Origin: Terrimicrobiaceae bacterium
Lineage (GTDB): Bacteria > Verrucomicrobiota > Verrucomicrobiia > Chthoniobacterales > JAATET01
NCBI GenBank assembly: GCA_028713285.1
Contig: JAQTOP010000006.1
Coordinates: 1 to 64,000 of the forward strand
Direction of reading: 5' to 3'
DNA: 64,000 nucleotides
Made by a program: the position numbers and the translations under genes. The notes under the pieces are model-generated. The model was not told where the DNA came from and ran no database searches. It saw nothing but the letters and a program-made list of their open reading frames with translations. Shown in pieces: positions 44,980 to 52,307 of the stretch (its first letter is position 1; each line of letters starts with the position of its first letter).

Positions 44980-46680
<1,701 letters not shown>

Positions 46681-46683
46681 CCT

Positions 46684-49600
46684 GTGCCAGCCATGCGAGA
46701 TTTTCCCGTTTCCCTTCGCGATTCCCTGCCTCTGCGCCGCTACCTGGAAATCTCCCGGCAGCCCGCCGGCTCCGCCTTCCACACGTCGCAAGTCTCGATC
46801 AGCTTCGGCGAGACCATCGACGCCGCCGCGCTGCGCGCCGCATGGGAGGCGGTGACTCAGGCTCACGCAGCGCTGCGCTGCGCCTTCAATGCGGAAGGCG
46901 GCCTCACCGAGGCCGCCCGGCCGGGATTCGCATGGAAGGAACTCGATTGGCAAAACACCGCATCGGAGGAACTCGGCGCGACATGGCAGGCGCTCGTGGA
47001 TTCCGATTCCGCCGCGCCCATCGCCTTCGACACCGCGGCGCCCCACCGCATCACGCTCATCCGGCTGCCGAATGGCGGCAGCCACGCGCTGTGGTCCTTC
47101 CACGCCGCCCTGCTCGACCACGCCTCGATCTCCACCGTCCTGCACCGGTGGCTCCACACCTACGACTGCCTGCGCTCCGGCGCGGAGGCGCCGCGCTTCG
47201 ACCCGCCGACTTCCAACGCACCTTCCGTCGAACCCGAGGATGCGTGGAAAACCGCTTTCGAGCGCTTCTCCCCCCCGCGTCCGCTCATCGTCCTGCCGCT
47301 GCCCCGCGGCAACGAGCCCGCCGGCACGCGGCGCTCGATCTCGCATGTCTTCGAGCGGCCCGAGCGCGCGGAATTCGCCGCCGCTGCGAAAAATCTTGGC
47401 GGCGATCCGCGCAGCCTTTTCGGCGCGGCGTGGGCGTTCGTGCTCGCGCGCGCCACCGCGTCCGACGATGTCCTGCTCCTCGAACCATCCCGCCCGCAGG
47501 GCGGCGTCGGACGGCTCGAATCCTTCCGGCTGCATCGCCGCAAGGTGGATGGGCACCCGACAAGCGGAGACCTCGTGCGCGCCTTCGCGGCGGACGCCCC
47601 GCCCTCGCCCCTCGATCCCGCCGCCATGGCCCAGGCGCTCAATCTGCCCGAGCCCGCGCTGGAGCCCACCGGATCTTTCGTTTTCCGCGAGCACACGCTC
47701 AACGACCGGCTCGTGCTCGAAATGCCGCGCTGGATGGAAGCCGACGCGCAGTTGATCCAAAACACCCCCATTCCGACCACGTTGCGGGTCGTCGCCACGG
47801 ACCGCCCCGAGATCGCGCTCGACTACGACCCCGCCCGCCTTTCCGACACCGCGGCGCGCACGCTCTTCGAGGCGTTTCGCGGCACGCTCGCCGCATTCGC
47901 CGCCGATCCCTCGCTCACGCTCGACACGTTCGCGCTGCCGGGCGCGCCCTCGGAAGTCGAGGCGCCCGAGGTCCCGTCGGCCTTCCGCTCGCTCGTTCCT
48001 CAAGGCATTCACGAAATCTTCGCGGATGCCGCGGCGGAATCGCCCGACGCCATCGCCGTGGAATTCGGCGACGAAAAGCTCACCTTCGCGCAATTGAACA
48101 ACGCGGCCAACCAGCTCGCCCGCCTGTTGCGCAAGCGCGGCATCGAGCCCGGCGCGCGCGTCGCCATCGCGATGCCCCGCTCGCCGAAATGGGTCACCGC
48201 TCTGCTGGGCGCGCTCAAGGCCGGCGCTATCATCGTGCCGACGCGCGTCGAGGATACCGGAGCCGACGTTCGCGGGTGGATCGTGGATTCCCTTCCCGAG
48301 GGCGACGAGCGCAAGCCGGTCGTCCAGATGCAGGCGGATGCCGGCCCCCTCGCGAACGAAAAATCCCGCGGCGTGCAGAACGAGACGAACCCAGCCTCCG
48401 ATGCGATCGCGTGGAAGTCCGACTCCGCGAGCGTCGCGTTGAGCCATGAAAAGCTCGCCGCCGCGTTGCAATACCGGGCCGCGCTGCTGGCCCTCAGCCC
48501 CGGAGATCGCGTGCTGCAATTCGCCCCGACGGCCACATTCTCCGCCGTCGAGGAAGCGCTCGCCACGCTGCTCAGTGGCGCGACGCTCGTTCTGCGCGCC
48601 GAGGACCGCTGGCCGACGCGCACGGCATTCCAGGAGTTCATTCAAGAAAAGAGCATCACCGCCCTCAGCGTGCCCACTGCGTTCTGGAGCCAGTGGACCC
48701 ACTACCTCTCCGACCTTTCGCTCCGCGCGCCCTCCACGCTGCGCATTGTCGTGACGACCGGCGAACTCCCCGCGCCAAATGCCGCCGCCGCATGGCGCGC
48801 CGCCGCGGACCAGGCGCGCTGGCTGCATCACACCACCGCGGAAATCCCCGGCGGCCCCGGACTCAGCGCGGAGTTTGCGGACGACGCCCTCTGGGTGGCG
48901 GCCCGCCTTGGGGAGCCCGGGCCTGCGACGCTCGCCCGGCTGGTCGATTCGCGTGGTCTCATCGTGCCGGTGGGCATGCCCGGCAACGTCGAGATCACCT
49001 CGATCCACGCGCAGGAAGCATTCAAGCCTCTCGGCATTGAGGCCTTCGCCTCTCCCGAAGGCGCCTTCTACGCCCGCTCGCAACTCCAGGCGATCGTCGC
49101 CGGCCCCTCGCCGGAGGTGCTCGCCGAGGCCATCCGCCACGCGGCGGCCTCCCACCCGGGCGTTTTCGACGCCCATGTCGAGCACCGCCTCATCTCTGCG
49201 CGACACGAATGGTGCGTGTGGATCGTCCCGCAGGACTCCGAACGCGGCGAACCGCACGACTTCCGCGACTGGCTCGCGGCGCGCCTTCCCGCGGCGCTCC
49301 GTCGCATCCGCGCGCTCCCGCGCTTCCCGCTCGACGACGCCGGCGGCATCGACCACGCGGCACTGATCGAGTTGCTGCCAGAGGACGCCGCCGCACCCAG
49401 CCTGCGCAAAGGCTCCGACGTCGAGGAGCGCTTCCGCCAGGCCATCTCGCGCGCGCTTGGCGGCCGCCGTATCGAACTCGACGAGATTCTCACCGACGGC
49501 CGCACGAAGCCGGTCGTCGCGAAGCTGCTGCTCGAAGCCGTCTCGCGCGAGGAACCCCGCGTCGAACTTGCGGACTTCACCACCGGCTTTTCCGTCCGCT

Positions 49601-50382
49601 CGCTCCTGCGCAACGTCCGCAGTCGCCGCACCGGAAAAGACAGCCCATGGACGCCGCTCCAGCCGCTCCGCGCTTCCGGCAAGCTCCCGCCGCTCGTTTT
49701 CATTCACGACTTCGATGGCACCGCGAAGCCCTTCGCCGGCCTGGTCGCGCATCTCGGCGACGACCAGCCCTGCTACGCCATCACGGCGCGCGGTCTGGTC
49801 GAGCCCGACGCCTGCCATTCCTCGATCGAGGAAATGGCCCGCGCGTATGTCGAGGCGCTCCGGGTCTTCGATGCCAGCGGCCCCTATCGCCTCGCGGGCT
49901 ACGGCTTCGGCGGACTGGTCGCTTTTGAAATGGCGCGCCAGCTCACCGCGGCGAACGCGCAGGTCGCCCTCCTCGTCGCCCTGGCGACCGAGCCGCCCGC
50001 CGGCAACTCGCCGACGGGTTTCCTCCTCGGCGGCTGGAAGCGCGCTCTGCCGGCATTTCTTGGAGGCAAGCCCGCCGGGGAACCGAACGGCCGCCGCCGT
50101 CGCACGCAGGATACGCCGGTCTTCCGCGCGAACCGCGAGGCGGCCGGAGCCTACGCCCCGCCCCAGGCTTCGCTTGCCGCGCAGATTTTCGCGCCCGAGC
50201 GCGAGTTTCCATCCTATTCCACGGTCCAGCGCGGCTGGTCCGCATGCTGTCGCGACGCACGGTTCTACCAGGTCCCCTGCTCGGGCCGCGAAATGATGGA
50301 CGAACCCGCCGTCGAGGCCGTGGCCCGCGCCATTACGAAGCTCGCCCGCTCCGAGGCGCTCGACACCGAGCTGGAAACATAG
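46684..50382 (+). CDS. NRPS-like C-A-T-TE protein lacking recognisable catalytic residues
   Basis: A 1,232-residue protein (GTG at 46684; ATG at 46693 also possible) with the fold order of a terminal NRPS module. Condensation-like (about 10-430): HHxxxDG reads HAALLDH (140-146), losing the catalytic second His. Adenylation-like (about 440-895): A1-type LTFAQLNNAANQLARLLRKRG is kept, but the glycine-rich A3 loop is deleted (IAW-KSDSASVALSH, 575-588) and the A10 lysine is Gly888 in AGGIDH. Carrier-like (about 910-985): the phosphopantetheine serine aligns with Lys942 in LTDGRTKPVV. Thioesterase-like (about 1000-1225): GYSFGG reads GYGFGG (Ser to Gly1074), and the His position is Gly1201. The frame is intact over 3.7 kb. 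Confidence 0.85.
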   Translation: MPAMRDFPVSLRDSLPLRRYLEISRQPAGSAFHTSQVSISFGETIDAAALRAAWEAVTQAHAALRCAFNAEGGLTEAARPGFAWKELDWQNTASEELGATWQALVDSDSAAPIAFDTAAPHRITLIRLPNGGSHALWSFHAALLDHASISTVLHRWLHTYDCLRSGAEAPRFDPPTSNAPSVEPEDAWKTAFERFSPPRPLIVLPLPRGNEPAGTRRSISHVFERPERAEFAAAAKNLGGDPRSLFGAAWAFVLARATASDDVLLLEPSRPQGGVGRLESFRLHRRKVDGHPTSGDLVRAFAADAPPSPLDPAAMAQALNLPEPALEPTGSFVFREHTLNDRLVLEMPRWMEADAQLIQNTPIPTTLRVVATDRPEIALDYDPARLSDTAARTLFEAFRGTLAAFAADPSLTLDTFALPGAPSEVEAPEVPSAFRSLVPQGIHEIFADAAAESPDAIAVEFGDEKLTFAQLNNAANQLARLLRKRGIEPGARVAIAMPRSPKWVTALLGALKAGAIIVPTRVEDTGADVRGWIVDSLPEGDERKPVVQMQADAGPLANEKSRGVQNETNPASDAIAWKSDSASVALSHEKLAAALQYRAALLALSPGDRVLQFAPTATFSAVEEALATLLSGATLVLRAEDRWPTRTAFQEFIQEKSITALSVPTAFWSQWTHYLSDLSLRAPSTLRIVVTTGELPAPNAAAAWRAAADQARWLHHTTAEIPGGPGLSAEFADDALWVAARLGEPGPATLARLVDSRGLIVPVGMPGNVEITSIHAQEAFKPLGIEAFASPEGAFYARSQLQAIVAGPSPEVLAEAIRHAAASHPGVFDAHVEHRLISARHEWCVWIVPQDSERGEPHDFRDWLAARLPAALRRIRALPRFPLDDAGGIDHAALIELLPEDAAAPSLRKGSDVEERFRQAISRALGGRRIELDEILTDGRTKPVVAKLLLEAVSREEPRVELADFTTGFSVRSLLRNVRSRRTGKDSPWTPLQPLRASGKLPPLVFIHDFDGTAKPFAGLVAHLGDDQPCYAITARGLVEPDACHSSIEEMARAYVEALRVFDASGPYRLAGYGFGGLVAFEMARQLTAANAQVALLVALATEPPAGNSPTGFLLGGWKRALPAFLGGKPAGEPNGRRRRTQDTPVFRANREAAGAYAPPQASLAAQIFAPEREFPSYSTVQRGWSACCRDARFYQVPCSGREMMDEPAVEAVARAITKLARSEALDTELET

Positions 50383-50435
50383 CACGCAACGCCCGGGCTT
50401 GAGCCCGATCTCGCGACTTTGTAGCGTGCGGCTCC

Positions 50436-52307
50436 GTGAGTAATCTACTTGAACGCATCCGCCCTGCCGCCGACAGCGGCCTTCTCCTGCCCGCTTCGGC
50501 AAAGAACCTCGCCGCGTTCCTCGTTCACAATCGCTCGTCCGTCAGCCTCGCCGCCATCGACGAATTGATCGCGGCCGAAAACTGGACCGAACTCGACAAC
50601 CGCTTCTTTCGCACCCTCGCCTTCGGCACCGGCGGATTGCGCGGCAAATCCATCGGTGCGGTCGTTACCGCCGCCGAGCGGGGCGCGGGCGGCCCGAATG
50701 GACGTCCCGAGCATCCCTGCGTCGGAACGAACGCGATGAATTATTACAATCTCAGCCGCGCCACGCAGGGCCTCGCAGCCTACGTCCTCGAGTGGCACGC
50801 GACAAGCGGCCGCACTCAGCGGCCCGCGATTTGCATCGCGCACGACACGCGGCATTTCTCGCGCGAGTTTGCGGAATTCGTCGCGAAGGTCATCGCCGAT
50901 CTCGGCGTGGACGCCCTGCTCTTCGAGGGCCCGCGCTCGACGCCCGAGCTCTCCTTCGCCGTGCGGCAGACGGGCGCGGCGGCCGGCATCAATCTCACCG
51001 CCAGCCACAACCCGCCGGAATACAACGGCTACAAGGTCTATTTCGCCGACGGCGGCCAGATCGTCGAACCGCACGCCAGCCGGATCATCGCGCGCGTGAA
51101 CGCCATCGCCGGGGAGAGCTACGAGCCCGTCGCCGAACGCGGACGCATCGTCGCACTCGGCGCGAATATCGACGCTCCGTATCTCGACGCCCTCGAATCG
51201 CTGCTGCTCGATCCGGCGGTCGTTCGCAATGCAAGGCTCCGCATCGTATTCAGCGCCCTGCACGGCGTCGGAGGCGAGGCCAGTGTGCCGATCCTCCGGC
51301 GCGTCGGCTGCGAAGTCTCAACCGTCGCCGCGCAGGACGTTCCCGACGGCCGCTTCCCGACGGTAAAGTCGCCGAACCCCGAAAATGCCGAAGCCCTCAA
51401 TCTCGCCATGCGGCAGGCCGACGCCGGGGGCACCGATCTGGTTCTCGCCACCGATCCCGACGCCGACCGCCTCGGCGTGGCCGCGCGCAGCACGGACGGC
51501 GCGCTGCATCTGCTCACCGGCAACCAGCTCGGCTCGCTCATGGCATGGTATCGGGCGATGAAATTTTTCGAGCTTGGCCGGCTCACGCGCGAAACCGCCT
51601 CGAGTGGCGTGATCATCAAGACATTCGTCACGACCGACCTGCAAAAGGCGATCGCGGAGAAGTTCGGACTGCGCTGCGTGGAAACGCTCACCGGATTCAA
51701 ATACATCGGCGCGAAGCTCGCGAAATACGAGGCCGACGGCGGCTCGATCTTCGTTTTCGGCGGCGAGGAAAGCTACGGCTACAGCGGCGCGGACTTTGTG
51801 CGCGACAAGGATGCCAATGCCGCCGCGGTGATGATCGCCGAGGTCGCCGCCTTTGCGAAGTCGCGCGGCCAGACCCTGCCGGAGTTGCTCGACGCGCTGT
51901 TTGCCGAGTTCGGCGTGCATCTGGAGCACAGCGAATCGCTCGTGATGGAGGGCGCGGACGGCGCCGCGAAAATCCAGGCCCTGTCGCAATCCTACCGCGA
52001 CCATCCTCCCGCAACGATCGCCGGTGCTGCGTTGATTCGAACGCGCGACTTCGCGGCGGGCGGGCTCGTCGATGTGGAAGGCGACGCCATTCCTCCCGAG
52101 TCGATGACCATTTTCGACGTCGAGGGCGGCCTGCGCGTCGCCGTGCGCCCGTCGGGAACCGAACCCAAAATCAAATTCTATCTATTCGTTGCGGAGCCGC
52201 CATCCGCCGACGTTGCGGCCGCCAAAGCACGCGCACGGGATCGACTCGACGCCGCCTGGGCGTGGCTCGACGCGGACGCCAAAACTCGCGGCTCGAATGT
52301 GCCGTGA
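50436..52307 (+). CDS. Phosphohexomutase (phosphoglucomutase/phosphomannomutase)
   Basis: Alpha-D-phosphohexomutase of 623 residues starting at GTG (MSNLLERIRPAADSG). Four-domain layout with FGTGGLRG, active-site serine in NLTASHNPPEYNGYK, metal loop ATDPDADRLGV, sugar-binding FGGEESYGYSG and phosphate-binding RPSGTEPKIKFYLF. Length and the early FGTGGLRGK motif fit the PGM2-like group acting on glucose-1-phosphate, ribose phosphates or related sugars. It is followed one base later by a small lipoprotein gene. Confidence 0.94.
   Translation: MSNLLERIRPAADSGLLLPASAKNLAAFLVHNRSSVSLAAIDELIAAENWTELDNRFFRTLAFGTGGLRGKSIGAVVTAAERGAGGPNGRPEHPCVGTNAMNYYNLSRATQGLAAYVLEWHATSGRTQRPAICIAHDTRHFSREFAEFVAKVIADLGVDALLFEGPRSTPELSFAVRQTGAAAGINLTASHNPPEYNGYKVYFADGGQIVEPHASRIIARVNAIAGESYEPVAERGRIVALGANIDAPYLDALESLLLDPAVVRNARLRIVFSALHGVGGEASVPILRRVGCEVSTVAAQDVPDGRFPTVKSPNPENAEALNLAMRQADAGGTDLVLATDPDADRLGVAARSTDGALHLLTGNQLGSLMAWYRAMKFFELGRLTRETASSGVIIKTFVTTDLQKAIAEKFGLRCVETLTGFKYIGAKLAKYEADGGSIFVFGGEESYGYSGADFVRDKDANAAAVMIAEVAAFAKSRGQTLPELLDALFAEFGVHLEHSESLVMEGADGAAKIQALSQSYRDHPPATIAGAALIRTRDFAAGGLVDVEGDAIPPESMTIFDVEGGLRVAVRPSGTEPKIKFYLFVAEPPSADVAAAKARARDRLDAAWAWLDADAKTRGSNVP

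Follow-up and report, generated by a model that had tools for sequence, protein, structure and literature searches.

A conserved NRPS-like protein without catalytic motifs, mostly encoded next to ilvD in Chthoniobacterales

The locus and the predicted module

The stretch of DNA analysed here (the window, 64,000 nucleotides of contig JAQTOP010000006.1 from a Terrimicrobiaceae bacterium) carries on its forward strand ilvD, encoding dihydroxy-acid dehydratase (44980..46680; TIGR00110, 752 bits with a cut-off of 618), and directly downstream a frame, 46684-50382 (+), which is open for 1232 amino acids from a GTG at 46684. The true start is most likely the ATG at 46693, 12 nt past the ilvD stop, because relatives begin at the equivalent methionine, and we place the gene, referred to as the pseudo-NRPS gene, at 46693..50382 (+), with a protein of 1229 amino acids; residue numbers are nevertheless counted from the GTG. 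It is followed at 50436-52307 (+) by a protein of the phosphoglucomutase/phosphomannomutase family, whose matches to named NCBIfam subfamilies are all below cut-off. The initial annotation took the open 3.7-kb frame as a sign of selection. Selection is indeed present, as judged from dN/dS, while the open frame alone is no proof of it, since the DNA is 69% GC and an antisense frame of 1823 amino acids (45031-50502, minus strand) covers both ilvD and the pseudo-NRPS gene. This antisense frame was rejected as a real gene: its dN/dS of 1.2-2.1 marks it as a shadow of GC-rich coding sequence.

Pfam matches, all above cut-off, were found for a condensation (C) domain (PF00668, 39.8 bits, residues 33-263; 46693..47964), an adenylation (A) domain (PF00501, AMP-binding, 127 bits; 47974..49380) and a thioesterase (TE) domain (PF00975, 82.6 bits; 49645..50379), the limits of the first two being approximate. 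A linker and carrier-protein remnant (49381..49640) can be aligned between the last two, and the order condensation, adenylation, carrier, thioesterase proposed initially is confirmed, even if a carrier profile search gave no match within the gene. In the motif alignment with EntF (E. coli K-12) and intact Verrucomicrobial NRPSs, HAALLDH (residues 140-146, 47101..47121) falls on HHxxxDG, Gly888 within the A10 region DAGGIDH (49336..49356) on the catalytic A10 Lys, and Gly1074 and Gly1201 on the nucleophile and His of the thioesterase, from which the whole Ser/Asp/His triad is absent. Lys942 stands opposite the phosphopantetheine Ser of the carrier once a short alignment gap is closed by eye. 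All these residues are where they had been reported, and the loss of the A3 motif was reported correctly as well; the loop itself, described as deleted, is shortened and unrecognisable in the alignment. Further losses are the A4 Asp, the A5 Glu and the Asp of the thioesterase. None of the residues by which a functional NRPS is recognised, i.e. A3/A5/A10 Lys, carrier Ser, second His of HHxxxDG and Ser/Cys-Asp-His of the thioesterase, is present in the window protein.

Structure prediction nevertheless gives the window protein the fold of a complete condensation-adenylation-carrier-thioesterase module of the EntF/SrfA-C type. Its AlphaFold model (residues 1-1200 counted from the ATG, with 20 relatives in the input) has a mean pLDDT of 78.7, and Foldseek matched it to the full-length NRPS modules ObiF1 (6n8e, E 1.9e-58), EntF (5ja2, E 4.4e-58) and SrfA-C (2vsq, E 1.6e-55). 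A relative without carrier, from the family designated f10 below, was modelled with a pLDDT of 82.5 and matches the same structures. The overall rmsd is high because the domains are arranged differently, an arrangement which the models do not fix (pTM 0.65 and 0.67). By descent the protein belongs to the NRPS superfamily, since Pfam and Foldseek show C, A and TE folds that are homologous to those of NRPSs and arranged as in a module.

No other condensation domain was found in the window's genome with the Condensation profile, which means that there are neither partner NRPS modules nor a glycopeptide assembly line. One PPTase match and seven carrier matches are present, all of them outside the pseudo-NRPS gene; one carrier match (G000:C59, L114) lies inside an open frame of 2112 amino acids, possibly a PKS or fatty-acid-like megaenzyme.

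Homologues, descent and selection

Homologues were searched for in 213 genomes of the order and 384 genomes of the class. They are present in 33 of the 36 genomes examined from four Chthoniobacterales families, designated f1 (4/4 genomes), f10 (23/26), f6 (2/2) and f13 (4/4), which live in soil, freshwater and nematodes; named records likewise put the dead family in Chthoniobacterales/Spartobacteria. Two of the three f10 genomes without the gene are merely 71% and 64% complete. All three other genomes of the window's genus carry it, at 60-67% identity. The main matches within the family exceed 800 bits, with a single outlier at 391 bits (G048); beyond the clade the highest score is 520 bits, for an intact enzyme from G381. 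None of the matched stretches contains an internal stop, the TGA and TAA codons flagged in them being terminal; the gene is split over two contigs in three genomes (G078, G095, G100) and ends early near a contig end in another (G093). A plasmid-borne source was dismissed, as matches were only partial and below 60% identity.

In a maximum likelihood tree of the C-A region the dead members form one clade (100/100, recovered in all 200 bootstrap trees), whose nearest outside relative is an intact enzyme in G381 with the order C-A-T-TE; the clade itself yielded no intact version. Close and distant homologues carry the same substitutions. Wherever the alignment columns are readable, no member has A3, A5 or the A10 Lys, nor the TE nucleophile, Asp or His, and Gly always takes the nucleophile position. 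The second His of the C domain is replaced by A, T, S, P, K, Q, G or R and is kept in a single f6 member, G047 (L045/L093), whose motif reads HHSLFDE. As the A and TE sites of this member are dead, its HH hints that loss of the C site came later. The carrier remnant is recognisable only in f1, to which the window's genus belongs, and the carrier is absent in f10 and f13. The losses at the A and TE sites are most likely older than the split of the four families. Loss of the C-domain His was probably a later event that happened more than once. The simplest history would be one ancestral A and TE loss, followed by loss of the carrier outside f1, with the old C site left free to vary. The catalytic sites were initially described as lost independently, which is not what we find: the losses are largely common by descent, in one clade.

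Selection was examined by the NG86 method. Ratios of dN/dS are 0.06-0.14 in close f10 pairs, with C, A and TE all low, and 0.18-0.19 for more distant f10 members and for a pair of Xiphinematobacter genomes. The range in the window's genus is 0.29-0.44, C, A and TE being alike, and the carrier remnant and linker have 0.22-0.26. The exact values are rough because several pairs have high dS. The antisense control, by comparison, gives 1.5-2.1 in the close f10 comparison, and it is the distance between the sense and antisense ratios that shows selection on the pseudo-NRPS gene. In each of the same pairs ilvD has the lower ratio, roughly one third of that of the pseudo-NRPS gene in the window's genus, and in the Xiphinematobacter pair six neighbouring genes have 0.06-0.10 against 0.18. 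The gene is thus constrained, and evolves faster than housekeeping genes. With its catalytic residues lost, its fold predicted as kept and all three domains under purifying selection, the protein has the features of a pseudoenzyme. Since the substitutions are also common to its homologues, the initial view of a repurposed protein, and not a pseudogene, is well supported, and a lone decaying gene can be discarded on the grounds of homologues and dN/dS.

Gene neighbourhood and family-only residues

Outside f13, ilvD was found on the same strand 7-93 nt upstream of the pseudo-NRPS gene in 23 of 24 relatives examined, compared with 12 nt in the window, and the pair was seen in three families (f1, f6 and f10), while other flanking genes vary among clades. 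In the sole exception (G083, L044 / L072) the upstream ilvD has a broken frame, owing to either an assembly error or a genuine frameshift. Both genes are kept in f13, unlinked, with ilvD elsewhere in the genome, which indicates that the link to ilvD is dispensable. In one f13 genome (G212, L037) the dead gene adjoins panS (ketopantoate transporter) and lies two genes from cimA (citramalate synthase). In Xiphinematobacter (L039, L040) it and a livF-like gene are arranged tail-to-tail, and beyond the latter come livG- and livM-like genes and carB; the three liv-like genes score below the cut-offs of the Liv models. Another f13 genome, G210, has no branched-chain-type neighbour at the dead gene. 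The branched-chain contexts in f13 were noticed post hoc and count as hints.

Columns conserved in 26 or all of the 27 members were sorted by whether intact NRPSs share them. Fourteen are family-only, ten in the C domain (S38, F41, G42, W84, W89, W101, P129, H134, W350 and D354), three in the A domain and one in the TE domain (Gly1074), while the conserved A and TE columns are mostly structural residues common to intact NRPSs. The most diverged member, G048 (L108:4655-8131; about 20% identity), is barely seen by Pfam (C domain 29.3 bits, below cut-off) and still lies directly downstream of ilvD; genes as diverged as this one would likely be annotated as hypothetical. It keeps all 14 family-only invariants against 19 of 39 other conserved columns, a contrast that is only indicative (Fisher p 0.0004) since alignment columns are not independent, and that for the C domain alone is not significant (p 0.10). 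This retention suggests, as far as sequence conservation can tell, that the new function is placed largely in the condensation domain.

A putative binding protein and its alternatives

From these results we consider the protein to be a non-catalytic, NRPS-derived pseudoenzyme with a binding or scaffold role, probably acting in branched-chain amino-acid metabolism, and give this reading a probability of about 60%. In a common ancestor of the four families, a complete NRPS termination module (C-A-carrier-TE) would have lost the chemistry of adenylation and thioesterase, a one-time event, and would since have been maintained as a non-catalytic protein. Most likely its condensation domain would have been reshaped to present a binding surface, and the folds of the A and TE domains would persist as its structural body. 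The pseudo-NRPS gene would probably be co-expressed with ilvD, presumably by co-transcription, and the protein could, for example, bind dihydroxy-acid dehydratase or some other component of the branched-chain amino-acid pathway, be it a protein or a metabolite. The scaffold or binding role, already put forward in the initial annotation, is favoured by the family-only invariants of the C domain, and the tie to IlvD or to branched-chain metabolism is proposed here from gene context. The narrower proposal, that a whole NRPS module gave up enzymatic work in a single conversion and came to assist or regulate dihydroxy-acid dehydratase and branched-chain amino-acid synthesis, thereby joining core metabolism and mattering enough to outlast genome reduction in a nematode's nutritional symbiont, is held tentatively and is rather doubtful.

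The gene pair could also have been passed on vertically in genomes that rearrange slowly, so that a binding or scaffold protein would have its partner elsewhere and the position next to ilvD would be an inherited accident. The unlinked genes of f13 agree with this, as does the fact that ilvD is near-universal and its co-occurrence hence uninformative; the persistence of the pair in f1, f6 and f10 while other neighbours change, and the branched-chain or ketopantoate genes that appear again in f13 contexts, make it unlikely. The main catalytic alternative to a binding protein is a new enzyme, with an active site in the condensation domain (CAT/acyltransferase fold), perhaps at H134 and D354, and a substrate from branched-chain or pantothenate metabolism. 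Condensation-fold proteins are versatile in acyl transfer and capable of catalysing many such reactions, and the ten new C-domain invariants, kept in all members checked, include His, Asp, Ser and Trp. On the other hand, the HHxxxDG position varies freely (A, S, P, K, T, Q, G, R), which indicates that the old tunnel centre is not used, and loss of the motifs is a strong though not conclusive argument against new catalytic activity; we regard a new enzyme as improbable.

Two further explanations have little in their favour. An NRPS module still active through displaced catalytic residues or trans-acting partners would fit the fully retained fold of the models and the trans-acting A domains used by some NRPSs (PMC8949500), and is very improbable given that the A, TE and C sites are lost together, the carrier is deleted in f10 and f13 and lacks its Ser in f1, and the window's genome has no other C domain. 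The loss of all catalytic motifs and an evolution faster than that of ilvD would also be expected of a decaying pseudogene of a lost NRPS cluster, an explanation which is hardly credible for a gene with open frames in four families and a dN/dS far under 1 in each of its three domains, and which is kept even in the 0.92-Mb reduced genome of Xiphinematobacter americani (G209, CP012665, 915,884 bp; PMC4607532).

The binding protein that we prefer has partial precedents. Termination modules of the EntF/SrfA-C type share its domain order and predicted fold, the homology is statistically clear, and the closest relative outside the clade, the intact enzyme of G381, is of this type; unlike them, the window protein lacks the catalytic motifs and is free-standing beside a primary-metabolism gene, and most family members lack the carrier. 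The X-domain of glycopeptide NRPSs is an inactive condensation-type domain with a mutated HHxxxDG which recruits oxygenases, the P450 Oxy enzymes (PMC8949500, PMC5238595). The window protein, as judged from its sequence, likewise has a condensation fold with a degenerate HHxxxDG, and the X-domain offers a precedent for non-catalytic binding; it is, however, one dead domain within an active assembly line, and the window protein is a whole dead free-standing module. In the albicidin and ramoplanin systems inactive A domains are complemented in trans (PMC8949500). These A domains, too, sit in an NRPS and have no functional core motifs, but they belong to working, peptide-making assembly lines. 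The literature search found only such single-domain cases and no earlier example of a conserved NRPS module that stands alone and is dead throughout, in agreement with what the initial annotation had supposed; a search on NRPS genes in Spartobacteria gave nothing relevant, and neither "nonribosomal" nor "ilvD" occurs in the main text of the Xiphinematobacter papers.

Xiphinematobacter is thought to provide essential amino acids to its nematode (PMC7857533), and retention of the gene there points to a possible link to symbiosis. Genome-mining tools may score the pseudo-NRPS gene as biosynthetic although peptide production is improbable. A dead module that is conserved, selected and nearly always found right after ilvD suggests that a complete assembly-line enzyme has become a protein that is no longer an enzyme and serves ordinary metabolism instead. 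If this is true, megaenzymes of secondary metabolism can be co-opted for binding, in this case apparently in the service of primary metabolism.
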